Shown: piece by piece, positions 7,943 to 26,327 of the stretch | Layout: every line of letters starts with the position of its first letter | Position numbering within the stretch: position 1 is the first letter of the stretch | IMG/VR virus record: IMGVR_UViG_3300038954_000279 | Coordinates: 1-39,048 of that record | Source: a virus | DNA: 39,048 nt | Direction: 5' to 3' (one strand) | The notes under the pieces: generated by a model | What the model saw: only the letters and a program-made list of their open reading frames with translations | The model's database searches: none | Told to the model about the DNA's origin: nothing | Translations under genes and position numbers: made by a program

Positions 7943-8246
7943 TTTTTTCTATTTTAATGTTGTACCCTGAAAAATCATGTTCTATTTTCTGGTTGTCTAC
8001 TGCTTTGCCGTATACTCTATCCATTACATCTTTATAAAATTGATAGCTGCCCTTATTCGCTTTTTTAATTGCCTGTAATATAAGCTGTACTTCGACACTT
8101 TCAGGATCAATATCTTTTTGTTCAGCTATTTTGCTTATTGCCTTGTAAAAAAGCGTTTTAAAGTTTTTCTTGCCTTTCGGGTAGCCTTTAGGATTGCCGG
8201 ATTCACCTTTTTTAAACTGTGTATTTTTATTCGGAAATTCTGCCAT
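7914..8246 (-). CDS. Terminase small subunit-like (DUF5681) protein
   Basis: The 110-residue protein has the N-terminal signature FKKGESGNPKGYPKGKKNFK, the DUF5681 pattern found in proteins encoded directly before large terminases. The middle (SVEVQLILQAIKKANKG.YQFYKDVMDRVYGK) matches the same family. The likely role is DNA recognition for packaging. It overlaps the large subunit gene. Function is inferred from family and position. Confidence 0.75.
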   Translation of the reverse strand: MAEFPNKNTQFKKGESGNPKGYPKGKKNFKTLFYKAISKIAEQKDIDPESVEVQLILQAIKKANKGSYQFYKDVMDRVYGKAVDNQKIEHDFSGYNIKIEKNGKIERYND

Positions 8247-8257
8247 AATACCTGCTT

Positions 8258-8824
8258 TTATACCTGCTTTTTATAATTTTTAGTATTAGTATATATATAA
8301 TATTTCTGTGTTCCTCCATGTACAACACTAACATAATATATTTTTTTTATTCCTTTTTTCCTGAGAAAATAACAAAACTTTGTAAAATTATTTTTACTAA
8401 ACAAAGTAGGACACTTTTTAATCATATTTTTTGTATAACCAAGTGAACATAATATATTATTCGATAACCTTCCAAAACTTATACTTATAAAAGTAATAAA
8501 AATTATACCTTCATAACTCTTATTCATTATTATGTCTAATTGCTCGTCGGGCATTCCATATGCATCTAAATCAATTATATCAAATTCGTTTAAGTTTATC
8601 TTTTTTAAATATTTACGATTATCACCTACTAAATCAATGTTTTTGTTCTTTTTTTTATCTATAGATATTACATTTATATTTTTTATTTTTTTAATATTAT
8701 TCCAGATTAATCCCTTTCCGGCGTAACAATCTAATACATTAATTTTATTTTTTTGAGGTAAAAACTTTTTTCTAATCTCTACCTTTTTTAAAAAATAACT
8801 ATTGTCAGTTTGCTGATTGCTCAT
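8258..8824 (-). CDS. Rossmann-fold methyltransferase-like protein
   Basis: The 188-residue protein begins with a class I methyltransferase-type core: INVLDCYAGKGLIWNNI (SAM-binding loop), INVISIDKKKN (acidic end of strand 2) and FDIIDLDAYGMPDEQLDII (strand 4). The C-terminal half has strands but no DPPY or NPPY motif, so the substrate is not obvious; an RNA or protein methyltransferase is as possible as a DNA one. It overlaps the ParB-like gene upstream by 20 bp and is followed by the terminase genes. AT content is high. Confidence 0.5.
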   Translation of the reverse strand: MSNQQTDNSYFLKKVEIRKKFLPQKNKINVLDCYAGKGLIWNNIKKIKNINVISIDKKKNKNIDLVGDNRKYLKKINLNEFDIIDLDAYGMPDEQLDIIMNKSYEGIIFITFISISFGRLSNNILCSLGYTKNMIKKCPTLFSKNNFTKFCYFLRKKGIKKIYYVSVVHGGTQKYYIYTNTKNYKKQV

Positions 8825-9440: not shown

Positions 9441-9731
9441 TTAGTCACTAAATAAAAAGTCTCTTAATTTTTTATTATCTTTTAATACTGTTAATATTCC
9501 AGCTGATAATGAACATATTTTTTCTTCCGATAATTCTATTCCAAGATGTCCATCTAACACATGTAATATTTCGTGAAATAAAGTATTTTCAGCAAGATCT
9601 TTTTTAAGCCCTCTTTTTATTAATATACTGCTTCTTGCGTAGTGGCTTTGACCTAACTGACTGTTATAAAATCCATCGGTTTCTTTAATATCTATTTCTA
9701 TGTCAAATAATTTTATCTTATTTAAAATAAT
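9441..9731 (-). CDS. Small HExxH metallopeptidase-like protein (no standard start codon)
   Basis: An open frame translates to KLFDIEIDIKETDG..., with ENTLFHEILHVLDGHLGI (HExxH zinc motif) and a tail LSEEKICSLSAGILTVLKDN. This pattern is common in small phage ImmA/IrrE-like or SprT-like metallopeptidases. The frame has no in-frame ATG, GTG or TTG before the motif. The best initiation is an ATT pair at 9726-9731, five bases after GAGGAG inside the end of the radical-SAM gene. I give the larger bound; the true start is uncertain. The catalytic motif is intact, so a pseudogene is less likely than an unusual start. Confidence 0.55.
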   Translation of the reverse strand: MILNKIKLFDIEIDIKETDGFYNSQLGQSHYARSSILIKRGLKKDLAENTLFHEILHVLDGHLGIELSEEKICSLSAGILTVLKDNKKLRDFLFSD

Positions 9732-10522
9732 TTATACTCCTCAAATGGCTCTGGGTTATGCTCGTCCATTAATACTTCATTTCCATACAGCCTTATATCA
9801 GGAGCTGCCTCCCGTAAATCCTTTTTAATATAAAACCGTTTATCTTCTCTTCTTAATATATTTACTACATCCGATAAAAAATCAGACCAATTTATTTTTT
9901 TATCTATTCCTTTATAGTTATTTAGTTTTCCTACCTTGTATACGTCAACAAAATCTACTGTCCTCTTAATAAGTTCTAATGATTGATTAATGTCTATAAC
10001 CGGCTCAAAGCTCGCCCAGGTTCTTATGCCGTTCTTTTTTAATTTTTGTAAAGCATATATTCTGTTTTCCGGAGTTGCTGAGTTCGGTTCCCATTCTATA
10101 TGATCTTTTGGGTTTATAAAAGTTAGTGTCGCTCCTACCTGTATTGACTTTCCGAATTTTTTAAATAAATCTATATCTCGCAATACCTTTGTTCCTGCCT
10201 TTGAAAGTATTGACACAGGTATTTTTTTTTCTAAAAATATTTCAAGTGTTTTTTTTGTTATTTCCTCCTCAATTTCCATGTCTAAATATGGATCATGCAT
10301 AAAACAAAGTAATACAGGCTCAGATGAGTTTTTATGTTTTTCAGCACTTTTCTTTACTTTTTTTATTATTTCTTTCCGTTGTACTACTGTATTATAATCC
10401 TCTCTTGTTTTTCTTCTTATTCGAGGTGCATAACAATACTTGCAGCCAAAATTACAACCGGTATATAAATTTAGTGCTAACGGACTGTATTCTCTTGCTT
10501 TACCTGACGGTGTATAAATCAT
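9722..10522 (-). CDS. Radical SAM protein, spore photoproduct lyase-like
   Basis: The 266-residue protein has the radical SAM cluster motif CNFGCKYC (Cys23, Cys27, Cys30) in the context LNLYTGCNFGCKYCYAPRI, typical of the SPL/Rv2578c-like group. Further family segments are LLCFMHDPYLDMEIEE, KIPVSILSKAGTKVL and IRTWASFEPVID. It should bind a 4Fe-4S cluster and cleave SAM. True spore photoproduct lyases repair UV thymine dimers, and phage members of this group have no settled substrate. A strong ribosome-binding site (AAGGAG) precedes ATG 10522. Confidence 0.8.
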   Translation of the reverse strand: MIYTPSGKAREYSPLALNLYTGCNFGCKYCYAPRIRRKTREDYNTVVQRKEIIKKVKKSAEKHKNSSEPVLLCFMHDPYLDMEIEEEITKKTLEIFLEKKIPVSILSKAGTKVLRDIDLFKKFGKSIQVGATLTFINPKDHIEWEPNSATPENRIYALQKLKKNGIRTWASFEPVIDINQSLELIKRTVDFVDVYKVGKLNNYKGIDKKINWSDFLSDVVNILRREDKRFYIKKDLREAAPDIRLYGNEVLMDEHNPEPFEEYKLF

Positions 10523-17729: not shown

Positions 17730-17912
17730 CTATTTTTTCACTGGTTGTATGATGTTACTGCCTGCATCTTGTATTCTTTTAATAAAGTAATCACATTTTT
17801 TATCAAATTCAAACAATGAATATGATTGATAAGCGTTTGGAATTGCTGTATATCTATAACAATCATTTTTCATAGGACAATTATTATTTTTACACATTGT
17901 TATATCTGGCAT
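17730..17912 (-). CDS. Array II cassette 8: small Cys-rich protein
   Basis: The 60-residue product begins MPDITMCKNNNCPMKNDCYR and has a later CDYFI. The Cys spacing (CxxxxCxxxxxC...C) suggests a metal site, a pattern common in small accessory-region proteins. It directly follows attC-like site II-6 and has AAAGGAAA upstream, but no attC-like site follows it. It is therefore either the last cassette, with its site lost, or the first gene of the phage backbone after the array. Confidence 0.5.
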   Translation of the reverse strand: MPDITMCKNNNCPMKNDCYRYTAIPNAYQSYSLFEFDKKCDYFIKRIQDAGSNIIQPVKK

Positions 17913-17940
17913 ATTTGTTTCCTTTCGGCGGTAATGTCAT

Positions 17941-18008
17941 ACAACGTTTGCGATTATACGCAGTCGCCATCAGGCGATTGAGCGTTAGCGTCGTATAATC
18001 GTTGTTGT
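17941..18008 (-). repeat. attC-like site II-6
   Basis: 68 bp. On the plus strand ACAAC-GTTT-GCGATTATACG pairs with CGTATAATCG-T-TGTTGT, with an inner hairpin GTCGCC/GGCGAT. Outer boxes and spacer asymmetry (4 versus 1-2 bases) match the other sites. The sequence TTGACAACA at the right end overlaps the box. Confidence 0.75.
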
Positions 18009-18023
18009 CAAATCGTTGCAAAA

Positions 18024-18161
18024 TTATCCAAATAGATTATTTCGCTCTATTCTTATGTACGCTTCACAGTCAGATAGTGATCCATGGAATTTGTGCTCAC
18101 CTGTTTCTGTATCATAAACCTCCCACGTATCGTCCTGATAAAACCTTATTTTCAATTTCAT
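18024..18161 (-). CDS. Array II cassette 7: 45-residue protein
   Basis: MKLKIRFYQDDTWEVYDTET... ends RIERNNLFG. AAAGGAG precedes the ATG and the stop lies 16 bp before the next attC-like site, so the cassette is complete. It resembles small DUF-type beta-hairpin proteins with a W-V-Y-D strand but no named family is certain. Confidence 0.5.
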   Translation of the reverse strand: MKLKIRFYQDDTWEVYDTETGEHKFHGSLSDCEAYIRIERNNLFG

Positions 18162-18190
18162 TTTGTACTCCTTTAATTTTGCAATTTCCG

Positions 18191-18239
18191 ACAACGTTCG
18201 CAGTTATCGGAAGTTTTAATTTCTGATAACTGCTGTTGT
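18191..18239 (-). repeat. attC-like site II-5
   Basis: 49 bp, short form. ACAAC-GTTC-GCAGTTATC-GGAAGTTTTAATTTC-TGATAACTGC-TGTTGT. The stems GCAGTTATC and GATAACTGC are perfect complements. Confidence 0.8.
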
Positions 18240-18281
18240 GTGATGTATTGATTTTTACTTATCAATAATAATTCAAATACA

Positions 18282-18539
18282 TTATAATTTTTCATTTAAT
18301 AAACCATAATCACGTTCTAAAAATTTGAATTTATTTTTTTTGCATGCACGATTCAAATAACTTGCTAATTTCATTGTACATTCTCCGCATAATTCCATTT
18401 TATCTCTCAGTGTCCATACTTCATGTATCTGATCATCTTGAGATGCTATACTTACAATATATGGAGATTTCCTTGATGTACTTTCATAAGAAATAACTTC
18501 TTTTCCACATACATCACAATAATATTTTTCTTCTAACAT
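18282..18539 (-). CDS. Array II cassette 6: zinc-ribbon-like protein
   Basis: The 85-residue protein starts MLEEKYYCDVCGKEVISYES, with a second pair in MELCGECTMKL (about residue 62), a four-Cys zinc ribbon. The start at 18539 is chosen because GGAGG lies seven bases upstream. The stop falls before site II-5. Host-takeover or transcription-related roles are typical for such ribbons, but nothing specific is visible. Confidence 0.55.
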   Translation of the reverse strand: MLEEKYYCDVCGKEVISYESTSRKSPYIVSIASQDDQIHEVWTLRDKMELCGECTMKLASYLNRACKKNKFKFLERDYGLLNEKL

Positions 18540-18564
18540 ATTATCCTCCAAATAATAATAAAAA

Positions 18565-18756
18565 TCAATATTTCATACAACGTTTGCCGATAAACGAAGT
18601 TTTAATTTTGTTTATCGGCTGTTGTACGCTGTTTGTCGTAGAGTATTCCCTAACAACATTGTTACACCTTGTGCAGTTTAAGACTTTATCACCATTTGAG
18701 TTTTCTGATACCGTGTAAAGTTTCGCTCCACAATCATTACATTCATTAAAATTCAT
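18565..18756 (-). CDS. Array II cassette 5: zinc-ribbon protein read through attC
   Basis: The 63-residue product starts MNFNECNDCGAKLYTVSENS with a second pair CTRC, a compact zinc ribbon of about 35 residues. The frame has no stop before site II-4 and translates the whole site (VQQPINKIKTSFIGKRC), ending in the next cassette leader. The tail is thus encoded by the recombination site. Confidence 0.55.
   Translation of the reverse strand: MNFNECNDCGAKLYTVSENSNGDKVLNCTRCNNVVREYSTTNSVQQPINKIKTSFIGKRCMKY
18577..18625 (-). repeat. attC-like site II-4
   Basis: 49 bp, short form, with stem GCCGATAAAC paired with GTTTATCGGC and centre GAAGTTTTAATTTT. Fully inside the reading frame of cassette 5. 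Confidence 0.8.
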
Positions 18757-18798
18757 AATTACTCCTTAGACAAAACTTATTACTTAACAGCTTTAAAA

Positions 18799-19221
18799 TT
18801 AATATCTTAATTCTCTTTCAGGTAAAAAATCTATATTAGTAGCCTCCATAGTTATTATTTCTATTTCACCATTCTCATTTTTAGTTAATTCAAAATAATA
18901 CTTATCTTTATCACCATCATAAATTTTTGAATATAATCCTGTTGTTTTAGAATTATAATATAATAAATCATGTATAGTTTTAAGAATACCATCTTTAATA
19001 TTATCAGCATAAACCCCACTTGAAAAATAATAGTCTTTATCTGGAGTTTCTCCCGTATACCTTACTGGCTCAAACACATAATTTAAAATACAATCCTTAT
19101 TATGATTATATTTTATTACTAAAATATATCTTTTATTATCATAATGTATTATTTTAGGAATAATTTTCAAAAGTTTATCTAAACTTAACCTTTTAATATC
19201 ATCAATATGTAATACTTTCAT
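18799..19221 (-). CDS. Array II hypothetical protein without its own attC
   Basis: The 140-residue protein (MKVLHIDDIKRLSLDKLLKI...) is soluble and beta-rich in the middle (NKRYILVIKYNHNKD) with no recognised motif. Upstream is only a half attC-like site (II-3), and downstream no site separates it from cassette 5. Its DNA is more AT-rich than neighbouring cassettes. It may have been inserted, or two cassettes may have fused through loss of sites. Confidence 0.5.
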   Translation of the reverse strand: MKVLHIDDIKRLSLDKLLKIIPKIIHYDNKRYILVIKYNHNKDCILNYVFEPVRYTGETPDKDYYFSSGVYADNIKDGILKTIHDLLYYNSKTTGLYSKIYDGDKDKYYFELTKNENGEIEIITMEATNIDFLPERELRY

Positions 19222-19277
19222 TTAGTTCTCCTTTAACTAAACCCTTTTCAGTATATTTTATTTTATCCTTTTATGTT

Positions 19278-19330
19278 AAGTTGGCGAAGCCAATTTGGGC
19301 TAGGCGTTAGCGTCGTATAATCGCTGTTGT
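19278..19330 (-). repeat. Half attC-like site II-3
   Basis: The right part is intact (AAGTTGGCGAAGCCAATTTGGGC...CGTATAATCGC-TGTTGT), but the left arm ACAACGTTTGCG is replaced by unrelated AT-rich sequence. A deletion or insertion breakpoint at about 19278 is implied. Confidence 0.7.
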
Positions 19331-19519
19331 ACGCTGTTCAAACACACTCCCTTTTTTAAGTTCAGTAACAAAGGCTTTGCGTTTTTCATCTGGGACCATA
19401 TAACATTTACCCTCTAAAACGCCGTCTGGAACATGTTTACTAAGTATGCACTCCGCAGAAGCAAAGCCGTATTTGTTACCGTGCTCAATATATTTTTGTG
19501 CCAATAATTTATCTTTCAT
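19307..19519 (-). CDS. Array II cassette 3: small protein ending in attC
   Basis: The 70-residue product (MKDKLLAQKYIEHGNKYGFA...) ends EQRTTAIIRR, where RTTA and following residues come from the attC-like box. It has AAAGGAGA before the ATG. A similar ending (RTTAN) occurs in three cassettes of array I. It looks soluble, alpha/beta, without a known motif. Confidence 0.5.
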   Translation of the reverse strand: MKDKLLAQKYIEHGNKYGFASAECILSKHVPDGVLEGKCYMVPDEKRKAFVTELKKGSVFEQRTTAIIRR

Positions 19520-19557
19520 AATATTTCTCCTTTAATTAAAAAGTGTTTGAATTGCAT

Positions 19558-19710
19558 ACAACGTTTGCGACTATGAGAAGTTGCCGAGTTTTTTTATGCT
19601 TGTATATACTTGCAATATGTGTTTAGGTTTTATACCTAATCTTTCACAATTATTACAAACATCTGTTAAACTCGGCAATTTAGGCGAAGCCGTCGCATAG
19701 TCGCTGTTGT
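19558..19710 (-). repeat. attC-like site II-2, long form
   Basis: 153 bp. Outer stem GCGACTATG/CATAGTCGC, inner stem TTGCCGAGTTT/AAACTCGGCAA, and a loop of about 80 bases that is coding (C-terminal part of cassette 2). Much longer than the 49-84 bp of most sites here. Confidence 0.75.
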
Positions 19711-19870
19711 CGGAGCGTTCGAGGAGGTGTTTAATGTCATCGTATTCAACCCAGTCTCCATCATCGCATAAACGAAATCCGGTTAATCTATCTTCTTCTT
19801 CAAATTCAATAATACTTAAATCTGGATTTTTCCATTTCCAGACATAATCAAGCTCATATCGTTTAATTAT
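19571..19870 (-). CDS. Array II cassette 2: protein with attC-encoded tail, non-AUG start
   Basis: The frame encodes IIKRYELDYVWKWKNPDLSI... and ends LLERSDNSDYATASPKLPS then DVCNNCERLGIKPKH. From ERSDNSDY onward the residues are specified by site II-2. The paralogous cassette at 25962 shares the 5' flank CGAGGAGGAAT and the LLERSDNSDY tail and has an ATG, whereas here the equivalent position is ATA or ATT (19865-19870). A TTG in the upstream attC box (19894) is the alternative start. The stop TAG is supplied by the attC stem. Confidence 0.5.
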   Translation of the reverse strand: MIKRYELDYVWKWKNPDLSIIEFEEEDRLTGFRLCDDGDWVEYDDIKHLLERSDNSDYATASPKLPSLTDVCNNCERLGIKPKHILQVYTSIKKLGNFS

Positions 19871-19890
19871 AATTCCTCCTCGAATGTCCG

Positions 19891-19966
19891 ACAACGTTTG
19901 CGGATATGAGAAGTTGACCGCAGGTCAATTTGGGCGATCATTAGCTAGCCTCATATCCGCTGTTGT
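19891..19966 (-). repeat. attC-like site II-1
   Basis: 76 bp. Outer stem GCGGATATGAG/CTCATATCCGC is perfect; inner hairpin TTGACC-GCA-GGTCAA; conserved TTTGGGCGA element. Boxes ACAAC and GTTGT are intact. Confidence 0.85.
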
Positions 19967-19978
19967 ACGCAGTTCATT

Positions 19979-20197
19979 TCAGTTAATTGGAACAGGAGCA
20001 ATGTCAAAATTAAAATCGCTTTCCATTCCGCATTCTTCACATTTATATTTAACGTGATTATCACCATTATCGTCATATGTATCAGAAATAAATGAATTAT
20101 CTGAACACATTTCATTTCCACATTTACAATAAATAAATGTCGTTTGTTTTTTATGTTTTATAAAAACTGATAAAATCCAATTTTTAATATTTGACAT
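19979..20197 (-). CDS. Array II cassette 1: zinc-ribbon protein
   Basis: The 72-residue product has a basic N-terminus (MSNIKNWILSVFIKHKKQTT), then YCKCGNEMC and KCEECGMES, a four-Cys ribbon about 30 residues apart. Its stop lies 12 bp before site II-1. It is the first cassette after the array II leader, which is the position where an integron places the newest and best-expressed cassette. Confidence 0.6.
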   Translation of the reverse strand: MSNIKNWILSVFIKHKKQTTFIYCKCGNEMCSDNSFISDTYDDNGDNHVKYKCEECGMESDFNFDIAPVPIN

Positions 20198-20221
20198 TTG
20201 TTTTTCCTTTATGAATTGCGT

Positions 20222-20271
20222 ACAACTACAATTATACGTACTTCTCTTTTTTTCAGAAAAGCGTTATTATA
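20222..20271 (-). repeat. Array II leader, attI-like or half attC
   Basis: ACAACTACAATTATACGTAC, then TTCTC, a T run, and CAGAAAAGCG with TTATTATA. It differs from the array I leader (26250-26299) at one of 50 positions. It starts with the ACAAC box and an arm resembling attC but lacks the matching right arm. It lies between the array promoter and the first cassette, the place of attI in an integron. Confidence 0.6.
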
Positions 20272-20414
20272 TTGCATATATGCAATATAATAATATAACC
20301 TTCAATCGTCAAGTTTTTTTTAATCAATTTAATCAATTTTTTTATTAACTCATTTTCCTTACTTTCGGCGTAGCCCTTTTTGTATTCCTTGCTTTTTATA
20401 TCTTTATCGTTCAT
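20253..20414 (-). CDS. Small lysine-rich hypothetical protein
   Basis: The 53-residue frame starts MNDKDIKSKEYKKGYAESKE and continues through the array II promoter to a stop in the leader. The N-terminal 35 residues look like a charged helix; the C-terminal part (IIILHICNIITLF) is encoded by the promoter and palindrome and may be incidental. It follows rusA by seven bases. Confidence 0.35.
   Translation of the reverse strand: MNDKDIKSKEYKKGYAESKENELIKKLIKLIKKNLTIEGYIIILHICNIITLF
20264..20293. promoter_or_regulatory. 30-bp perfect palindrome at the array II promoter
   Basis: TTATTATATTGCATA followed by its exact complement. It covers the -10 box (20284-20289) and the predicted transcription start, so it could be an operator for a dimeric repressor or form a hairpin at the 5' end of the mRNA. 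The array I promoter lacks it. Confidence 0.6.
20284..20312 (-). promoter_or_regulatory. Array II promoter
   Basis: TTGACG, 17 bases, TATATT on the minus strand. Same spacing and -10 as the array I promoter. It reads directly into the leader and cassette 1. Confidence 0.7.
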
Positions 20415-20421
20415 ATATCAT

Positions 20422-20778
20422 CTACTTTGTGTTTTTTATAAAATCGATCGGGTCAAAGGCAGGCGTATAAATATATATTTCAACTTTATCTTCTTTCCCT
20501 TTGCGGCTGCTTATTAATATATTTCGAATATCTTTATATCCGTCTTTCTCAAATATACAATCCTCAATCAACTTTATCATTGCAGAACAATTTGAAGCAT
20601 CGAGCGGATATTTTTTAAATGTAAATTTATATTCAACCGTAAAGATACCTTTCAGTTTTTTAGGAAAATATTTTTTTAGCACTAATAAATAATCGTCTTT
20701 TATTTTTTTTCGCTTTGACCAGTGTGTGCCGGAATACCATTTATTTAAGCTGATTTTCGGGAGTCCTTTAATTATCAT
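20422..20778 (-). CDS. rusA: RusA-type Holliday junction resolvase
   Basis: The 118-residue protein has the RusA layout: an N-terminal KGLPKISLNKWYSGTHWSKR segment, VEYKFTFKKYPLDASNCSAM, then IKLIEDCIFEKDGYKDI with the acidic residues (D-x-x-N, E-D, D-x-x-D) that bind Mg2+. It resolves four-way DNA junctions during late replication and packaging. It overlaps the HNH gene by 11 bp. Length matches the family (about 120). Confidence 0.8.
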   Translation of the reverse strand: MIIKGLPKISLNKWYSGTHWSKRKKIKDDYLLVLKKYFPKKLKGIFTVEYKFTFKKYPLDASNCSAMIKLIEDCIFEKDGYKDIRNILISSRKGKEDKVEIYIYTPAFDPIDFIKNTK

Positions 20779-21076
20779 TTATCTCCTCAAAAATTTTCCG
20801 TAAAAGTCTATTTCTTTTAACTGGCTGATTTCCGATATTAAAGTAGGAATTACACAAATGACAAGATGCTTTTACGTTTTGCCTATGATTTATTATTTTT
20901 TTAACGGTTACTTTTTTTAAAAACTTACCGTATAAACTTAAGTAATATCTTGCTATATATTTACGATTGCTTTTTGTATTTGCTATTCTGTGAGCTAATT
21001 CTGTAGCCCTGCAGGAACATCTTTGACATATATAACCGTCTCTTTTGAATATTTCTCTTCGCTCTTCTTTATTCAT
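20768..21076 (-). CDS. HNH endonuclease-like protein
   Basis: The 102-residue protein begins MNKEERREIFKRDGYICQRC with CxxC, a conserved ELAHRI segment, and a second zinc pair in ASCHLCNSYFNIGNQP. This order (CxxC, H, CxxCN) is the HNH zinc-finger nuclease layout. Its ATG overlaps the upstream stop (ATGA). It may act in recombination with RusA or as a free homing-type nuclease. Confidence 0.65.
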   Translation of the reverse strand: MNKEERREIFKRDGYICQRCSCRATELAHRIANTKSNRKYIARYYLSLYGKFLKKVTVKKIINHRQNVKASCHLCNSYFNIGNQPVKRNRLLRKIFEEINDN

Positions 21077-21222
21077 TTTATCCTTGCATATTCAATATCG
21101 TTTTTATATATTCTATCTTCACACCACGATATATCCGCTGATCCTACAAGGTTGTCAAAGTCAGCATCTTCTTCGACATCTTTTCCTATTTGTAAATAAA
21201 TTTTATCCGGTATGTTTTTCAT
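21073..21222 (-). CDS. 49-residue acidic protein
   Basis: MKNIPDKIYLQIGKDVEEDA, then DNLVGSADISWCEDRIY. It has AAGGAG upstream and a 4-bp overlap with the HNH gene. The W-C-E-D-R-I-Y motif is shared by many short phage proteins of unknown function that begin with a beta strand (IYLQIG). Confidence 0.55.
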   Translation of the reverse strand: MKNIPDKIYLQIGKDVEEDADFDNLVGSADISWCEDRIYKNDIEYARIK

Positions 21223-21323
21223 ATATTCTCCTTATTTACCATATCCCATAATTTCTCATTTTGCTTGTTAGCTCCGCGCAGTTCTTTTTTTAATCTCTTA
21301 TTTTCTTTATTTATTAAAATTAT
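21219..21323 (-). CDS. Possible coiled-coil mini-protein without standard start
   Basis: An open frame ending in an ATGA overlap with the next gene encodes IILINKENKRLKKELRGANK and QNEKLWDMVNKENI, a hydrophobic start plus coiled coil. No ATG, GTG or TTG lies at its beginning and no ribosome-binding site is clear; a start at ATA or ATT near 21320 or a frameshift from the upstream gene would be needed. Confidence 0.3.
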   Translation of the reverse strand: MILINKENKRLKKELRGANKQNEKLWDMVNKENI

Positions 21324-21613
21324 AAGTAGCCCGGGTGTGGTTTTATTCGCCCTAAGTGGTCAGTTTTTATTCCAGGAACATCGACATGTTTAATAAGGCA
21401 CAAATATCCGTCTTTAATACAACAAATACCTTGAGCATCGTCAGCGGTCATATAATCACCGGTCGACGAAGCCGTCATGTTAACTCCATTGCTCTGAAAT
21501 GGTTCATCTTCAAATGCATCAGGAAATATTCCTTTCAAAATCCTCTTAACATCATCACACTGTTTAGCTGTTTCCAAAACCCGTTCCTTTTTTACTTTTA
21601 AATATTTTGACAT
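21320..21613 (-). CDS. Hypothetical protein
   Basis: The 97-residue protein (MSKYLKVKKERVLETAKQCD...) has an N-terminal helical region with DDVKRILKGIFPDAFEDE and a C-terminal beta region GDYMTADDAQGICCIKDGYL. It has AAAGGAGG before the ATG. No family is recognised. It lies in the small-gene run between the PAPS-reductase-like gene and the nuclease genes. Confidence 0.5.
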   Translation of the reverse strand: MSKYLKVKKERVLETAKQCDDVKRILKGIFPDAFEDEPFQSNGVNMTASSTGDYMTADDAQGICCIKDGYLCLIKHVDVPGIKTDHLGRIKPHPGYL

Positions 21614-21661
21614 TTTGTCCTCCTTTATTTTTATTACAAAGCATTAATTTATATACTCTTT

Positions 21662-21862
21662 TCATATATCTCTTATCCCCGTTTTGTCGATAATCTCTTT
21701 CATTTCTTCTTCTCCAATTCCTATGTAGTTTTGTATTTTTTTAAGTTCAAATCCGGAATTAAACATTCTACAGAATAATCTTTCATTCGATGTCATATCT
21801 GAAGTTTCTTTTATTTTAAGAGTTCCGTTTAAATAATATGCTGGTAATTTTGTCGATTTCAT
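21662..21862 (-). CDS. Small hypothetical protein with HTH-like segment
   Basis: The 66-residue protein (MKSTKLPAYYLNGTLKIKET...) has a C-terminal segment FELKKIQNYIGIGEEEMKEIIDKTGI that could be a helix-turn-helix or a helical hairpin. GAGGAG lies upstream. DNA binding is possible but unproven. Confidence 0.45.
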   Translation of the reverse strand: MKSTKLPAYYLNGTLKIKETSDMTSNERLFCRMFNSGFELKKIQNYIGIGEEEMKEIIDKTGIRDI

Positions 21863-21933
21863 TTGTTCTCCTCAATTTTTTATTCCTTAAATAATTCTTT
21901 ACAGCACTCCTATATCAGTTTCATAATATTCTT

Positions 21934-22101
21934 TCATATCGCATTTATATAAAAAGCGTATGGGCACTTAAGTGGATCATCCTCTTTATAAGCCTCGTAT
22001 ACTCTTTCCCAATCATCACTCATAAATTCTTTTACTAACACCTCACACCAGGTTTTTCCGGACTTCCTTCGAAAATGTATGCAATCAATACAGCTATTCA
22101 A
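21934..22101 (-). CDS. 55-residue Cys-containing protein (TTG start)
   Basis: From TTG 22101, eight bases after AAGGAA, the frame reads (M)NSCIDCIHFRRKSGKTWCEV and ends KCPYAFYINAI. Four cysteines (CxxC, WC, KCPY) suggest a small zinc site. The pattern with CIDCIHF and CPYA is like other short phage Zn proteins. Confidence 0.5.
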   Translation of the reverse strand: MNSCIDCIHFRRKSGKTWCEVLVKEFMSDDWERVYEAYKEDDPLKCPYAFYINAI

Positions 22102-22105
22102 TTTT

Positions 22106-22270
22106 TTATTCCTTAATTAATTTTTCAATATATTTTTTTATATTGCTTTCACTGTGTATATATATTAATTTTATTATATCTTCTAATCTAAAACAATAAC
22201 CTACTATGTCAATATTCTTATCATCTCTATAGTTATCTCTTATATTTTGTATTAATCTATTTTCATTCAT
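22106..22270 (-). CDS. Small hypothetical protein
   Basis: From ATG 22270 the product is 54 residues, MNENRLIQNIRDNYRDDKNI with later EDIIKLIYIHSESNIKKYIE. A longer upstream extension would overlap the PAPS-reductase-like gene out of frame and is not preferred. No known family. Confidence 0.4.
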   Translation of the reverse strand: MNENRLIQNIRDNYRDDKNIDIVGYCFRLEDIIKLIYIHSESNIKKYIEKLIKE

Positions 22271-22275
22271 ATATT

Positions 22276-23052
22276 TTATTCGAAAAGAATTGTCTGGTCT
22301 GGTAAAGTTTTGCTTGTTTTCTTTTCTCTTATCCACCACCAAAACATATCTTCTCCGTTTTCCCATTTTTCCATATTCCAGCTGTCTTTTTTATTTTCAT
22401 ATAACCGGTTAAACGCTTTAATAAAATTTTTAGTATAGACAGGATATTCTTTCGTCTCTCTCTCTCTCTCTCTCTTCGGTTTCATAGGACAAAATAAACA
22501 ACCTATTCGCTTATATCCTTTATCGTAAAGTTTGCAATATTTCAAATTATATTTATTTATATATTCCCAGACATCGTCATCTGTAAAATCTATAATTGGA
22601 TGTAAATACCTTTTGGTTTTATCTTTTATGCAAAATTCTACCTGTTTTCTTCCAGCACGTTTATTGCTTTCAGCTTTTCTTATTCCTGTTATAACTAATC
22701 TTCCACCTCCACCGGTCTCTTTATATTCTGAACAACACCACCTTGCTTGCCTAAGAGGAAAACCCTTTTCAGATAAACGAATTAAAAAAGGTATTTCAGG
22801 TCTATCTATTGTAATATTTGTATAATTTTTCTTCATAAAATATATCACTTCCGGAGGATCTATCGTTGTAAGAGAATGATGTCCATCAAATTTTACTCCA
22901 GCCCTTTTAACTATATCATATAATACAATACTGTCTTTTCCACCACTGAAAGCAAGGTAATACCCTTCAGGCGGCTCTAAATCTTGTATAATTTGTATAG
23001 CATTTTTTTCTTTGTCAACAAAATTGAATAAAGTTTTCTCTTGCAAGCTCAT
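22276..23052 (-). CDS. PAPS reductase / DndC-like ATP-pyrophosphatase
   Basis: The 258-residue protein has the PP-loop LAFSGGKDSIVLYDIVKRAG (SGGKDS 36-41), a Cys pair region RWCCSEYKETGGGG, ITGIRKAES, and a C-terminal CLFCPMKP motif. This is the phosphoadenosine phosphosulfate reductase family form carried by many phages and related to DndC, which uses ATP to activate sulfur chemistry, possibly on DNA or tRNA. A (GA)10 tract at 22455-22475 encodes RERERE in frame. It lies between the two cassette arrays. The substrate cannot be told. Confidence 0.75.
   Translation of the reverse strand: MSLQEKTLFNFVDKEKNAIQIIQDLEPPEGYYLAFSGGKDSIVLYDIVKRAGVKFDGHHSLTTIDPPEVIYFMKKNYTNITIDRPEIPFLIRLSEKGFPLRQARWCCSEYKETGGGGRLVITGIRKAESNKRAGRKQVEFCIKDKTKRYLHPIIDFTDDDVWEYINKYNLKYCKLYDKGYKRIGCLFCPMKPKRERERETKEYPVYTKNFIKAFNRLYENKKDSWNMEKWENGEDMFWWWIREKKTSKTLPDQTILFE
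22455..22475. repeat. (TC)10 dinucleotide tract in coding sequence
   Basis: An uninterrupted dinucleotide run (GA on the coding strand) inside the PAPS-reductase-like gene. A change of one unit would shift the frame about 60 codons before the normal stop, so it is a candidate contingency (phase-variable) tract. Confidence 0.85.
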
Positions 23053-23081
23053 TTATATTTCTTTAAAAATCTTTTTATTAT

Positions 23082-23267
23082 TTAATATAATCTGTTTTCT
23101 TTGGTTCTATTCTCATTTAATTCATCTTTTATTTTGACCATTGCTTGAGTTAATGTATCAAAGTCTGGACAAACACCATAAACATAATCAAGGTTATCAG
23201 ATGACTCTCTTTCAATATAATCTATTGCTTTCCATAAACACTTTATTGCTTCTTCAGTAGTTTCCAT
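23082..23267 (-). CDS. Array I last gene: small acidic protein
   Basis: The 61-residue product METTEEAIKCLWKAIDYIER... has AAGGAG eight bases before ATG 23267 (an earlier ATG at 23273 is too close to it). It is helical and acidic. It follows site I-9 but no attC-like site follows it, the same situation as the last gene of array II. Confidence 0.5.
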   Translation of the reverse strand: METTEEAIKCLWKAIDYIERESSDNLDYVYGVCPDFDTLTQAMVKIKDELNENRTKENRLY

Positions 23268-23294
23268 AATCATTTCTCCTTTAAAATATTTCTG

Positions 23295-23344
23295 AAAACG
23301 TCCGCAAATAAGCAATGTTTTAATGGCGTTATAATCGCTGTTGT
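23295..23344 (-). repeat. attC-like site I-9 (arm-mismatched hybrid)
   Basis: 50 bp, short form. Left arm GCAAATAAGC equals that of site I-2, but the right arm is TTATAATCGC, which would pair with GCGATTATAA and not with this left arm. The left box is AAAAC. It cannot form the normal outer stem. Confidence 0.65.
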
Positions 23345-23351
23345 GTGATAG

Positions 23352-23621
23352 TTACTCGGCTTCTTTATTTTCAAGCAATTTATTCAACGCCTTTACATCA
23401 TCTGACGTAAGGTATATTTTTGCGTAATTGTCTTTGCCTATGCCCACAATAACCTCAAAATGTTCAATAATATGTTTAATTTTTGTTGGTGCTAACATAT
23501 CATCACAGACAAAAAGTTTTTCGTCTCCTTCGTGATTGTCATTTTTTACGCTTCTACGCAATATCTCATGTAAGAGTACCTTTGTGTCGATGTCTTTAAT
23601 TAAAAATGTTTCTTTGCTCAT
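23352..23621 (-). CDS. Array I cassette 9: hypothetical protein
   Basis: The 89-residue protein (MSKETFLIKDIDTKVLLHEI...) is soluble alpha/beta with HIIEHFEVIVGIGKDNYAKI. Its ATG overlaps the end of cassette 8, which is translated through the attC-like site, so the two may be coupled. AAAGGAGG lies upstream. No family is recognised. Confidence 0.5.
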   Translation of the reverse strand: MSKETFLIKDIDTKVLLHEILRRSVKNDNHEGDEKLFVCDDMLAPTKIKHIIEHFEVIVGIGKDNYAKIYLTSDDVKALNKLLENKEAE

Positions 23622-23893
23622 TTTGAGCCTCCTTTTATTTTATTTAAGCCGAGTAATTTCACACAACGTTTGCGGATGTACGAAGTTATGCGAAGCATAA
23701 TTTGGGTGAGGCTGGTAATCCAGCCGAACCGTACATTCGCTGTTGTGCGATGGTTAAACTTTTTACTTTCGTAAAAGTATGAAATTGTTGTCTTCCCACA
23801 ACGTGGACAAGGAAAATCTATAATTGCATTATTTCTTTCAATTTCTGGAATAAGATACCGACACCTTGGATTCGGGCATTGAAACAATTTCAT
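23618..23893 (-). CDS. Array I cassette 8: zinc-ribbon protein read fully through attC
   Basis: The first 55 residues (MKLFQCPNPRCRYLIPEIE... FPCPRCGKTTISYF) are a compact four-Cys zinc ribbon. With no stop, translation continues as HRTTANVRFGWITSLTQIML through all 84 bp (28 codons) of site I-8 and ends in an ATGA overlap with cassette 9. The attC-derived tail is basic. The tail may be dispensable or may serve translational coupling. Confidence 0.55.
   Translation of the reverse strand: MKLFQCPNPRCRYLIPEIERNNAIIDFPCPRCGKTTISYFYESKKFNHRTTANVRFGWITSLTQIMLRITSYIRKRCVKLLGLNKIKGGSK
23663..23746 (-). repeat. attC-like site I-8
   Basis: 84 bp. Outer stem GCGGATGTACG/CGTACATTCGC, two inner hairpins (TTATGC-GAA-GCATAA and GGCTGG-TAAT-CCAGCC), conserved TTTGGG between them. 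Boxes ACAAC/GTTGT intact. Confidence 0.85.
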
Positions 23894-23922
23894 ATTTTAT
23901 CTCCTAAAAGTTTAACTTTCGC

Positions 23923-23998
23923 ACAACGTCCACGGCTATACGAAGTTGGCGAATCCAATTTGGGCGAAGCGTAAGCGTAGCCGTATAGCCGTTGTTGT
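23923..23998 (-). repeat. attC-like site I-7
   Basis: 76 bp. Stem CGGCTATACG/CGTATAGCCG, inner hairpin TTGGCGAATCCAA, TTTGGGCGAAGC, and boxes ACAAC/GTTGT. Confidence 0.85.
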
Positions 23999-24015
23999 AC
24001 GCTGTAACAAAACAT

Positions 24016-24288
24016 TCAATATTTCCCTGTCCAAGAACAATTATGAAGTTCATTCGTATTAACAATTTTAAATCCCCATCTGTAAGAAAATGGTGAAATA
24101 TTATCATTTGGTTTTTCATCGATTATTAAAAAGCCTTTTTTATGAACACACCATGTTTTACCAAACTGAACAAAGCCTAATGTTTTTCTAAATATCGGTA
24201 ACAAATAAAACCCGAACGAATAACGTGAATGATGCCCCCATATAATAGGTGATATTTTCATAATTGTTCTATATATTTTTTTTAACAT
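24016..24288 (-). CDS. Array I cassette 7: basic hypothetical protein
   Basis: From ATG 24288 (AAGGAG upstream) the 90-residue product is MLKKIYRTIMKISPIIWGHH... ending NELHNCSWTGKY. It is basic and aromatic-rich, with an N-terminal amphipathic stretch. The frame extends upstream into site I-6, but that part is attC sequence and is excluded. No family is recognised. Confidence 0.5.
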   Translation of the reverse strand: MLKKIYRTIMKISPIIWGHHSRYSFGFYLLPIFRKTLGFVQFGKTWCVHKKGFLIIDEKPNDNISPFSYRWGFKIVNTNELHNCSWTGKY

Positions 24289-24316
24289 GTTTAATCTCCT
24301 TGTTTTGTTATTGCGT

Positions 24317-24365
24317 ACAACGTTTGCGGATAACCGAAGTTTTAATTTCATTTATTTGCTGTTGT
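24317..24365 (-). repeat. attC-like site I-6 (arm-mismatched hybrid)
   Basis: 49 bp, short form. Left arm GCGGATAACCG, right arm TTTATTTGC. The right arm is the partner of the left arms of I-2 and I-9 (GCAAATAA), not of this site. Centre GAAGTTTTAATTTC is conserved. Confidence 0.7.
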
Positions 24366-24767
24366 ACGATCGTTATTGGCCTGCCTCTTGGCTATGATTT
24401 CAAAAGAACTTAAGGCCGGGCGGGCGTGTAACTCATAACCGACACACCATAACCTGAGAAGTCCGCTCTTTGGTAAACAATCGATATTCCATGACATAAC
24501 AGGCAATGTTTTAGGAAGTGGGCTTGAATACAAATCACCATAACCACCAATACCGTTAATGTGTATTACATCACTGCACCCAGATAAACGACAAATTGCC
24601 TTGTCAGAACGGACTGCAACAAAGTCCATCAATCGGTATCCGCTGCCATGAAGTGGTTTAGCCCGGCCCGGCAAAATTACTAAAGAGTCAAATTCTCCTA
24701 TATCTTCATTCCACTTGCGGCATGGCAATTGTTCAAAATCCTTTTTACTCATTTCGTTAATATTCAT
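24348..24767 (-). CDS. Array I cassette 6: hypothetical protein
   Basis: The 139-residue protein (MNINEMSKKDFEQLPCRKWN...) is the largest cassette product. It has VILPGRAKPLHGSGYRLMDF and MSWNIDCLPKSGLLRLWC. I do not know the family, although the beta-rich, Gly/Pro-rich middle resembles phage proteins that accompany lipoprotein or DUF clusters. The last residues (NDRTTANK) are attC-encoded. Its GC content is higher than neighbouring cassettes, suggesting a separate origin. Confidence 0.55.
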   Translation of the reverse strand: MNINEMSKKDFEQLPCRKWNEDIGEFDSLVILPGRAKPLHGSGYRLMDFVAVRSDKAICRLSGCSDVIHINGIGGYGDLYSSPLPKTLPVMSWNIDCLPKSGLLRLWCVGYELHARPALSSFEIIAKRQANNDRTTANK

Positions 24768-24776
24768 AATTCCTCC

Positions 24777-25109
24777 TTATAGGGCCAATAATGTCGTACA
24801 ACGTTTGCGACTATCTGACGTTTTAATGTCGGATAGTCGCTGTTGTATGACGTTGGCAGGTATTTTGTTTTTATCAATTAACTTACCTATAAATGGCAAA
24901 TTTAATAATATTCTGTTTTTCAATTCTTCAAATCTTGCGCATAATAACCAACACCTGAAAGCATAGGACTGATAAATAATATTTATACTTTCATCAGAAA
25001 CAAATCCTGTTTTTACTCCATTTTCAATTTTAATTTCAACTGCTTCTGGAAGATTTATTTCGATAAAATTGATAACTTCATTTTTCTGTTCTTCTGTTAA
25101 ATTTGCCAT
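24777..25109 (-). CDS. Array I cassette 5: protein read fully through attC
   Basis: The first 85 residues (MANLTEEQKNEVINFIEINL...) are soluble with an acidic N-terminal helix and a hydrophobic helix (SYAFRCWLLCARFEELK). The final 25 residues (VIQQRLSDIKTSDSRKR, then CTTLLAL) are encoded by site I-5. The stop comes 9 bp before cassette 6 begins, so termination and reinitiation would be coupled. No family is recognised. Confidence 0.5.
   Translation of the reverse strand: MANLTEEQKNEVINFIEINLPEAVEIKIENGVKTGFVSDESINIIYQSYAFRCWLLCARFEELKNRILLNLPFIGKLIDKNKIPANVIQQRLSDIKTSDSRKRCTTLLAL
24798..24846 (-). repeat. attC-like site I-5
   Basis: 49 bp, short form with a perfect stem: GCGACTATCTGAC with GTCGGATAGTCGC. 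Centre GTTTTAAT. Entirely within the frame of cassette 5. Confidence 0.85.
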
Positions 25110-25129
25110 TTATTTTTCTCCTGCCAATG

Positions 25130-25321
25130 TTACACAACGTCCTGCGAACAGATGTTTATTTTTTCTTCACCGAATTTTTCATTTGCGACTTCCTCACAAG
25201 CATAAACAATATGTTTTATTCTATCTGGATTCACCATTTCCGCATAAGTAATATCGTGTGATACTTCTTGTCGCAAATCCTCAAGAGTTTTACATTTTTG
25301 ATAACTTTCTTTGTATGTCAT
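25130..25321 (-). CDS. Array I cassette 4: small protein
   Basis: The 63-residue product (MTYKESYQKCKTLEDLRQEV...) is acidic and helical. It ends KINICSQDVV, with the last residues read from half site I-4. GAGGTG lies upstream. Only half an attC-like site separates it from cassette 5. Confidence 0.5.
   Translation of the reverse strand: MTYKESYQKCKTLEDLRQEVSHDITYAEMVNPDRIKHIVYACEEVANEKFGEEKINICSQDVV
25134..25152 (-). repeat. Half attC-like site I-4
   Basis: Only ACAAC-GTCC-TGCGAACAG is present; the complementary arm and second box are missing and the gene sequence continues instead. It marks a lost cassette junction. Confidence 0.55.
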
Positions 25322-25350
25322 AAAATCACCTCTTTAAAAATAAATATTGT

Positions 25351-25434
25351 ATAACGTTCGCAGTTATGAGAAGTCGGCTTTAGCCGATTTGGACGGAGCA
25401 ATCTATGATTGCGAAGTCTCATAACTGCTGTTGT
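25351..25434 (-). repeat. attC-like site I-3
   Basis: 84 bp. Box ATAAC instead of ACAAC, then GTTC-GCAGTTATGAG paired with CTCATAACTGC, inner hairpin TCGGCTTTAGCCGA, TTTGGACGGAGC, and right box GTTGT. Confidence 0.8.
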
Positions 25435-25448
25435 CAGATAGTCACGGT

Positions 25449-25619
25449 TTAGTCTTTTATAAACTCTTCCGTTTTTACGATTGCCACACCCTCTTTAAGT
25501 TCAGCACTGTCTGTTGTTACGATTATTTTGCAATGAGGGTGACCATTTTTATTGAGCCATTTTATAAGGGGCTTTGCCGCCTTTAACATACTGTCTGATT
25601 GCTTTCTTGATATTACCAT
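25449..25619 (-). CDS. Array I cassette 3: small conserved-looking protein
   Basis: The 56-residue product (MVISRKQSDSMLKAAKPLIK, WLNKNGHPHCKIIVTTDSAE) matches a widespread small phage and plasmid protein pattern, 'PLIKWLNxNxHPHxxIxVTxxxAEL', whose role is unknown. GGAGTTATCA precedes ATG 25619. The stop is 15 bp before site I-3. Confidence 0.6.
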   Translation of the reverse strand: MVISRKQSDSMLKAAKPLIKWLNKNGHPHCKIIVTTDSAELKEGVAIVKTEEFIKD

Positions 25620-25658
25620 TGATAACTCCTTATTTTATATTTTAAACCGTGATTTCTG

Positions 25659-25707
25659 AAAACGTCCGCAAATAAGCAATGTTTTAATTTCGTTTATTTG
25701 CTGTTGT
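25659..25707 (-). repeat. attC-like site I-2
   Basis: 49 bp. Stem GCAAATAAG with TTTATTTGC, centre CAATGTTTTAATTTC. Left box AAAAC. Its two arms reappear singly in sites I-6 and I-9. Confidence 0.75.
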
Positions 25708-25920
25708 ACGATGGACTTGCCACATTTTCAAAAGTGTTTTTAAAAACAAAAAAAATACCTTAAGAATTTGCCCCGGGTAAACAAAAAATGCTCCGTAGGT
25801 TGCAGTATCGTGCCCGCAGTAGGGACAATACTTCCCGAAAAAGACACTTCCGGAATGGCAAAAACAAACCCTTAAAGGTAAATCATTTCCATTCAAAATT
25901 CTTTTTATTTTCAAATTCAT
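25684..25920 (-). CDS. Array I cassette 2: zinc-ribbon plus hydrophobic segment
   Basis: The 78-residue protein (MNLKIKRILNGNDLPLRVCF...) has CFCHSG and CPYCGHD, a four-ligand ribbon, then a hydrophobic stretch ILKVFFLFLKTLLKMW that could associate with membrane. The end VHRTTANKRN is attC-encoded, and the stop lies within site I-2. Confidence 0.55.
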   Translation of the reverse strand: MNLKIKRILNGNDLPLRVCFCHSGSVFFGKYCPYCGHDTATYGAFFVYPGQILKVFFLFLKTLLKMWQVHRTTANKRN

Positions 25921-25948
25921 AAATTCTCTTATGTGATAAATCTTTCAC

Positions 25949-26098
25949 ACAACGTTTGCGATTATGCGAAGTTGCCGAGTTCATTTCCACAAACTGGACA
26001 ATATTTCAAACCCCAATCCCACTTATTACACAAATCTTTTGTTTTAGCACAACAACTCGGCAATTTAAGGAGCTTGTCTCCCTCATAATCGCTGTTGT
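25949..26098 (-). repeat. attC-like site I-1, long form
   Basis: 150 bp. Stem GCGATTATG/CATAATCGC, inner stem TTGCCGAGTT/AACTCGGCAA, and a coding loop holding the C-terminal zinc ribbon of cassette 1. Same design as long site II-2. Confidence 0.8.
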
Positions 26099-26228
26099 CG
26101 GATCGTTCGAGGAGGCCATTAACAATTTTTATAGTTTCCTCAAAATCAAACCCGCTAATTAATGTGTCATCACCTATATTATGACGATACTGCCTTTGTG
26201 CTTTGTACAATATTTTGGGTACTTTCAT
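25962..26228 (-). CDS. Array I cassette 1: protein with attC-encoded zinc-ribbon tail
   Basis: The 88-residue product (MKVPKILYKAQRQYRHNIGD...) continues LLERSDNSDYEGDKLLKLPS and then a ribbon with C-C...C near DLCNKWDWGLKYCPVCGNEL. Everything from ERSDNSDY on is encoded in site I-1; the stop TAA is formed by the attC stem. GAGGAGGAATAA precedes the ATG. Its 5' flank (GTTGTCGGACATTCGAGGAGG) and the inverted copy at 26096-26117 bracket the gene. It is paralogous to the cassette at 19571. Confidence 0.6.
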   Translation of the reverse strand: MKVPKILYKAQRQYRHNIGDDTLISGFDFEETIKIVNGLLERSDNSDYEGDKLLKLPSCCAKTKDLCNKWDWGLKYCPVCGNELGNFA

Positions 26229-26249
26229 TTATTCCTCCTCGAATGTCCG

Positions 26250-26299
26250 ACAACTACAATTATACGTACTTCGCTTTTTTTCAGAAAAGCGTTATTATA
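26250..26299 (-). repeat. Array I leader, attI-like or degenerate attC
   Basis: The same 50-base sequence as at 20222-20271 except one base. It contains ACAAC-TACAATTATACG and the hairpin CGCTTTT/AAAAGCG. Here an extra GCTGTTGT lies at 26317-26324, so the whole 26250-26324 could be a degenerate attC-like site whose right box overlaps the promoter -35 (TTGACAACA). Confidence 0.6.
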
Positions 26300-26327
26300 A
26301 TATACTAATTTTTATTGCTGTTGTCAA
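26299..26327 (-). promoter_or_regulatory. Array I promoter
   Basis: TTGACA, 17 bases, TATATT on the minus strand. The last bases of the -35 box are part of ACAAC (TTGACAACAGC), the attC-type box. It reads into the leader and cassette 1. Confidence 0.75.

Follow-up and report, generated by a model that had tools for sequence, protein, structure and literature searches.

Two cassette arrays in a tailed phage genome

The stretch of DNA analyzed here, in the following called the window, is the whole virus record IMGVR_UViG_3300038954_000279 (39,048 nt), part of a tailed-phage genome with portal, large terminase, head and scaffold genes. Its array region (17,744–26,254) holds two clusters of hairpin-forming sites alternating with small open reading frames (ORFs) on the minus strand. 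Counting as complete those sites that run from ACAAC, or a variant of it, to GTTGT on the plus strand (all attC coordinates are given for the bottom strand), we found 13 complete and two half sites of attC type, all in one orientation. An earlier note based on the sequence alone had described about thirteen complete and two half repeats with ACAAC/GTTGT boxes, an asymmetric spacer and small ORFs in alternation, and this description was correct. The spacer asymmetry consists of a three-base bulge on one side only on the plus strand (GTTT against T). Array A extends slightly to the left of 17,941, with a further cassette with matching ends at 17,744–17,945.

A first covariance model (R1), trained on the window sites, detected arrays both in Patescibacteria genomes and in further viral contigs. 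To avoid circularity, a second model (R2) was built from 69 Patescibacteria sites alone; these had themselves first been found with R1 and were validated by being linked to an integrase in their genomes. Of the 13 complete window sites, R2 detects 12, all on the plus strand (E values from 2e-12 to 2.4e-5). In other phage DNA (about 97 kb) it had no match, and in 12 kb around a class 1 integron a single one, namely the attC of the cassette beside intI1. Folding with DNA parameters gave a more stable structure for the plus than for the minus strand at all 13 sites. In addition, the R box at the start of a cassette matches the R'' of the attC of the same cassette. A scan of the sites against Rfam returned no family, only a chance match. 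The window sites are genuine integron attC sites, and the proposal that integron-type cassette arrays lie inside a phage genome is supported. The arrays show the features of integrase-less attC clusters (CALINs): at least two folded attC sites, a strand-asymmetric fold, mostly single co-directional ORFs and matching R boxes.

When the arrays were compared with named phages and plasmids by DNA similarity, the sole attC match lay in a Klebsiella class 1 integron; the other matches were a short stretch of a Maribacter phage gene and short AT-rich ones. The site in question, on K. pneumoniae plasmid NZ_CP044036 (L086), is 77% identical to window positions 23,923–23,998, and both sites have the same polarity relative to the ORF and to intI1. 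The junction of the L086 cassette with attI1 is unusual; intI1 and the neighboring genes nonetheless fix the direction. The polarity of the Patescibacteria arrays inspected agrees with that of the window. From the polarity shared with the class 1 integron it follows that the plus strand of the window is the attC bottom strand and that the ORFs are canonically oriented. This settles the question of the recombinogenic strand raised in the earlier note. ORFs inverted relative to the attC sites, as suspected from the spacer asymmetry, are ruled out by the same comparison. The class 1 integron is further alike in its folded attC architecture, the G/TT junction and the order of Pc, attI and cassettes (in the window a promoter-like site, an attI-like pad and cassettes), whereas the R box in the window arrays is GTTGTRYG. 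As a side observation, L086 6179–6655, annotated as AAC(6')-Ib7, looks by eye like a restriction enzyme fragment joined to the beginning of attI1, and the resistance label seems wrong.

attI-like pads and promoters at the array heads

The elements at about 20,222 and 26,250 are not attC halves but two attI-like pads that share 86% identity across 71 nt. At 20,226 and 26,254 the coding strand has the sequence AAGTACGTATAATTGTA/GTTGT, in place of the CGCAAAC/GTTGT of most attC sites, and each array has its pad at the right, gene-proximal end (Table 1). Measured from the R box, the promoter-like sites lie 45 and 58 nt upstream. Scored by a sigma-70-like consensus only, TTGACA-17-TATATT ranks first among 70 promoter-like matches within the 10-kb region, whose total is not clearly above that of shuffles.

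Pads were also found in three other viral contigs. Two of these are unrelated and show the same design: L120 carries its own pad, AAAGTACTGATAAAAACAA/GTTGT, twice (at 100 and 2908), and L123 likewise has its own, GCAGATAGATATA/GTTGT, at 8174 and 9646. L118 has one pad. The two L123 inserts (8174–8378 and 9646–9919) consist of a single cassette behind each identical pad and flank a helicase-like gene, a clear natural example of empty-site logic. The pad sequence of the window, searched as a DNA pattern, matched no other viral contig.

attI sites are poorly conserved (PMC3607928); those of Patescibacteria read about TTCGTATARAAACGAGTTR. We built a weight matrix from 18 Patescibacteria attI sites, allowing one gap. 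By this matrix, the window pads rank 8th and 9th among 1223 GTT positions, a moderate match; in L120 the pads come 4th and 5th of 582, and in L123 6th and 12th of 422. The ranking is supportive of, but not proof for, the pads being attI sites.

Table 1 Coordinates of the cassette arrays, pads, promoter-like sites, attC sites and cassette ORFs in the window.
Feature	Position	Strand	Remarks
Cassette array A	17744–20226	-	coding strand minus; read leftwards from attI-like pad at 20222
Cassette array B	23290–26254	-	coding strand minus; read leftwards from pad at 26250
attI-like pad 1	20222–20243	-	core AAGTACGTATAATTGTA/GTTGT; likeness to pad 2 spans 20201–20271
attI-like pad 2	26250–26271	-	core same as pad 1 over 22 nt
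Promoter-like site TTGACG-17-TATATT (Pc-like)	20284–20312	-	upstream of pad 1; 10/12 consensus
Promoter-like site TTGACA-17-TATATT (Pc-like)	26299–26327	-	upstream of pad 2; 11/12 consensus
attC A1	17941–18008	+	R2 E 1.9e-6
attC A2	18191–18239	+	R2 E 1.7e-8
attC A3	18577–18625	+	R2 E 2.5e-9
Half attC A4	about 19278–19330	+	right half only; 79% identical to 23943–23995
attC A5	19558–19710	+	long central region, read by cassette ORF; R2 E 2.6e-9
attC A6	19891–19966	+	R2 E 2e-12
attC B1	23297–23344	+	degenerate R box; R2 E 0.1; R1 51.8 bits, but within R1 training set
attC B2	23663–23746	+	R2 E 4.2e-12
attC B3	23923–23998	+	77% identical to class 1 integron attC; R2 E 3.1e-12
attC B4	24317–24365	+	R2 E 9.2e-7
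attC B5	24798–24846	+	R2 E 2.5e-10
Half attC, array B	25134–25160	+	left half only
attC B6	25350–25434	+	R2 E 1.1e-9
attC B7	25658–25707	+	R box degenerate on one side; R2 E 2.4e-5
attC B8	25949–26098	+	long central region, read by cassette ORF; R2 E 2.9e-8
Outermost cassette ORF of array A, 60 aa	17730–17912	-	ends matched 17744/17945; far end without attC
Cassette ORF, 45 aa	18024–18161	-	within TTGCAAAATTA wrapper
Cassette ORF, 89 aa, CXXC-type zinc-ribbon-like	18282–18551	-	weak Pfam matches
ORF, 140 aa	18799–19221	-	in merged cassette between A3 and A4
Cassette ORF, 70 aa	19307–19519	-	
Cassette ORF, 107 aa	19571–19894	-	reads through attC A5
First cassette ORF of array A, 72 aa	19979–20197	-	
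Cassette ORF, 89 aa	23352–23621	-	
Cassette ORF, 91 aa, zinc-ribbon-like	23618–23893	-	reads through attC B2
Cassette ORF, up to 111 aa	24016–24351	-	start may be internal, at 24321
Cassette ORF, 139 aa	24348–24767	-	
Cassette ORF, 110 aa	24777–25109	-	
ORF, 63 aa	25130–25321	-	adjoins half site
Cassette ORF, 78 aa	25684–25920	-	
First cassette ORF of array B, 88 aa	25962–26228	-	in TTCGAGGAGG wrapper

Complementary cassette ends

In the window arrays and in the other phages, the complementarity between the two ends of a cassette reaches far past the R box. We measured the longest identical run in positions 12–27 of the cassette ends, comparing each end with its own partner or with the end of another cassette. 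Phage cassettes (n = 25) showed a mean run of 8.1 nt for own ends versus 2.9 nt for mismatched ones (0 of 20,000 permutations, p < 5e-5); end pairing in L120 was automatic and left two cassettes mispaired, which lowers rather than raises the phage mean. The corresponding runs were 6.9 versus 3.0 in Patescibacteria cassettes (n = 34) and 3.0 versus 2.8 in class 1 cassettes (n = 14), whose ends, unlike those of the window, are unpaired beyond the R box although the R boxes match. The R box and the extension are separated by a fixed mismatch, GAAAT/GCAAT at the start and mostly GATGT/GCTGT at the end of the cassette.

Within an array the extensions are unable to pair inside one attC, because the end of the neighboring cassette comes next; in the excised circle they adjoin. 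DNA folding of 12 cassettes made the circle hairpin more stable by 11.5 kcal/mol on average, compared with 0.3 for a wrong cassette end. From these computed stabilities we infer that the extended ends favor hairpin extrusion, and so insertion, of free cassettes. Cassette ends paired past the R box were not found in the open-licence papers searched.

Related arrays and integrases in Patescibacteria

As the earlier note had stated, the window contains no integrase: the record has no match to the tyrosine recombinase family PF00589, and no tyrosine recombinase is encoded in the ten viral records searched (up to 43 kb). In Patescibacteria, 287 genomes were scanned for the attC type (E ≤ 1e-5) and for relatives of the integrase of the L040 array (E ≤ 1e-50). 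The attC type occurs in 28 genomes (~10%), a close relative of the integrase in 34, and both in 17. Hence, the integrase is carried by 17/28 attC-bearing versus 17/259 other genomes (Fisher p 2.4e-11). In 12 of the 17 genomes with both, one contig holds the integrase and, within ~3 kb of it, a site that is always on the same strand. According to the coordinates, integrase and site share a strand and the cassettes lie opposite as in L040, which is the usual divergent layout of intI, attI and cassettes.

The solved structure best matching the Patescibacteria integrase is the Vibrio integron integrase 2A3V, in an alignment that skips 2A3V residues 183–239. More than 80% of 25 aligned integrases lack residues 194–205, 211–229 and 237–247 of IntI1 (L086), and the catalytic-type residues R146, K171, H277, R280, H303 and Y312 (IntI1 numbering) are kept in 25/25. 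The missing stretch contains the integron-specific I2 helix. On the level of these alignments, the Patescibacteria integrases linked to arrays are shown to lack the I2 segment that IntI1 has. PMC7790495 attributes the rise of single-strand recombination to the acquisition of I2. Such I2-less, IntI-like integrases were found at L039, L040, L042, L043 and 21 further Patescibacteria loci, many of them adjoining attC arrays. In the window record both an intI beside the array, as in a complete integron, and an I2-less integrase of this kind are absent. By NCBIfam, the Patescibacteria integrases fall below the integron-integrase cut-off and score about equally to a XerA-like family. Integron arrays with I2-less integrases in Patescibacteria were not found in the open-licence papers searched.

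Homologues that are 36–43% identical, again without the length of the missing segment, are present in 42/198 Bacteroidota genomes, and the attC type is nearly absent there (2/198 genomes). Since these homologues mostly come without the attC type, the presence of the integrase alone is no evidence for arrays, but its linkage is. A lone attC of the same type was observed in a Chloroherpetonaceae genome (L018 7595–7690), whose phylum has any such site in 2/198 genomes.

The Patescibacteria arrays (G001, G002, G007 and others) share with those of the phages the attC type, the polarity, the extended end pairing and a pad-like attI consensus. They differ in encoding an adjacent integrase, divergent from the cassettes, which the phages lack. 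Furthermore, the phage attC sites score highest against one another.

Interpretation and alternative explanations

Altogether, we consider it probable that the tailed phage carries two integron cassette arrays, each headed by an attI-like docking site with a promoter and served by an integrase supplied by the host. Each array would start at a docking site carried by the phage, with the promoter behind it, followed by single-gene cassettes with their attC sites. As the phage record has no integron integrase, the cassette mover is most likely made by the host; it would insert, remove and shuffle cassettes during infection or lysogeny. Cassettes would enter at the pads, and the two promoter-like sites would express the pad-proximal cassettes first. 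The extended ends would lengthen the attC stem only in the excised circle, so that re-insertion might be favored over excision. Judged from sequence comparison, the attC type, the cassette-end structure and the attI consensus tie the arrays to an integron lineage found in Patescibacteria. A broader proposal, to which we give somewhat less than an even chance, is that of a separate integron lineage with an I2-helix-free integrase and long complementary ends stiffening the free circle's hairpin; several kinds of phage would exploit this lineage via paired integrase-less docking sites, collecting host cassettes with the host enzyme.

Several points weigh against arrays served by a host integrase of this lineage. 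The virus record is incomplete, and an integrase may lie in the missing part. The site at 23,297 is too degenerate for independent confirmation (R2 E 0.1), the window pads match the attI matrix only moderately, and cassette movement has so far not been observed. In addition, a KDO8P synthase gene of the phage suggests a host with lipopolysaccharide. Lipopolysaccharide is mostly missing from Patescibacteria. Because the gene argues for a lipopolysaccharide host, the donor integron may be other than that of Patescibacteria.

The two half sites and the degenerate sites at 23,297 and 25,658 show some decay, which would fit a passive capture. In this case the phage would have picked up parts of an integron from a host chromosome, together with attI and promoter, through illegitimate or homologous recombination, and the arrays would now be static. 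Qi et al. 2023 propose this for other phage attC clusters (PMC9892861). For the window we regard it as unlikely, as most attC sites and cassette-end pairings are intact and three unrelated phages carry their own pad twice at separate places, in L123 with one cassette per pad. These paired pads and the single-cassette pads of L123 make the pads look repeatedly used. Very improbable, in our view, is a complete integron borne by the phage, with its integrase in a genome part missing from the record. The record is classed as linear and has no end repeats, as is often the case for fragments, and Qi et al. describe an integrase for some phages (PMC9892861); however, PF00589 is absent from all ten viral records, and no integrase adjoins any pad, its usual place in integrons.

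The known integrons of Treponema, mentioned in the earlier note, raise the question of cassettes acquired from a spirochaete host. Chromosomal integrons of Treponema do exist and are alike in their short attC sites (63–68 bp) and small cassettes (PMC3607928), but their intI is transcribed towards attI, and no sequence link to the window was found. The attC relatives found lie in Patescibacteria and one Chloroherpetonaceae genome; these were also the matches of an exact-pattern scan of 84,980 species genomes, which had none in Treponema, although this is weak evidence, as the strict pattern fits only some window sites. The Treponema link is thus unsupported and we give it little probability. 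Finally, every site is a hairpin between genes, and two scored as terminator-like, which would fit a role as terminators, attenuators or RNA processing sites that separate small genes of the phage. Such a role outside integrons is extremely improbable, since the same sites stand next to the IntI-like integrases of Patescibacteria and also occur within a class 1 integron, the R boxes match between both ends of one cassette, and Rfam families were unmatched.

The novelty of integron cassettes in phages is weakened by earlier work. Qi et al. 2023 report integrons and attC clusters in 21 phages, with CALINs in virulent phages and tested attC sites that recombine with IntI1 (PMC9892861). Because of these published clusters, the window arrays are not a first. 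The CALINs described there are alike in combining phage attC arrays and cassettes of a single direction with the lack of intI. They differ in the attC type, and the accessible part of the study reports neither a repeated, promoter-backed attI-like pad per array, nor a two-pad layout, nor extended complementary cassette ends (PMC9892861). Phage arrays that lack an integrase and begin at repeated, promoter-backed pads were not found in the open-licence papers searched.

If the pads are working attI sites, phages would maintain dedicated docking sites that are driven by a promoter and used by an enzyme of the host, which goes beyond accidental carriage and would amount to a trans-acting mobile integron without integrase. 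The Patescibacteria integrases bear on integron evolution, namely on how the recognition of single-stranded attC arose; this step is commonly credited to the I2 helix. The extended ends offer a testable idea of how such an integrase might find its substrate and how insertion might beat excision.

Cassette products and neighboring genes

Most cassette products have no known function, and some are zinc-ribbon-like. One cassette product in L118 resembles a DNA methyltransferase; similar products occur in other phage cassettes (PMC9892861). Near-identical cassette flanks, TTGCAAAATTA plus AAGGAG at one side and TAATTTTGCAA at the other, surround four ORFs without detectable mutual similarity (window 18195 on the minus strand, L118 2732 on the minus strand, L120 632 and 1492 on the plus strand). 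The 5' flank provides the ribosome-binding site and the 3' flank offers a possible stop codon, as if genes had been swapped inside a fixed frame. A second common wrapper, ATTCGAGGAGG to CCTCCTCGAA, again encloses different ORFs (window 19895 and 26254, both on the minus strand; L123 8174 on the plus strand).

Searches of viral contigs with the terminase and portal returned no close relatives of the phage, and the terminase matches among named phages are only deep (46% to Marinitoga viruses). The KDO8P synthase (kdsA-like) gene lies among the phage head genes (3111–3863, minus strand), a cell-envelope sugar gene hinting at the host type. A Radical SAM protein that resembles the PA0069 or mobile-pair type is encoded at 9722–10522 (minus strand). 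Between arrays A and B lies a gene for a PAPS-reductase-family protein (22276–23052, minus strand), with relatives 46–53% identical in two other viral contigs.

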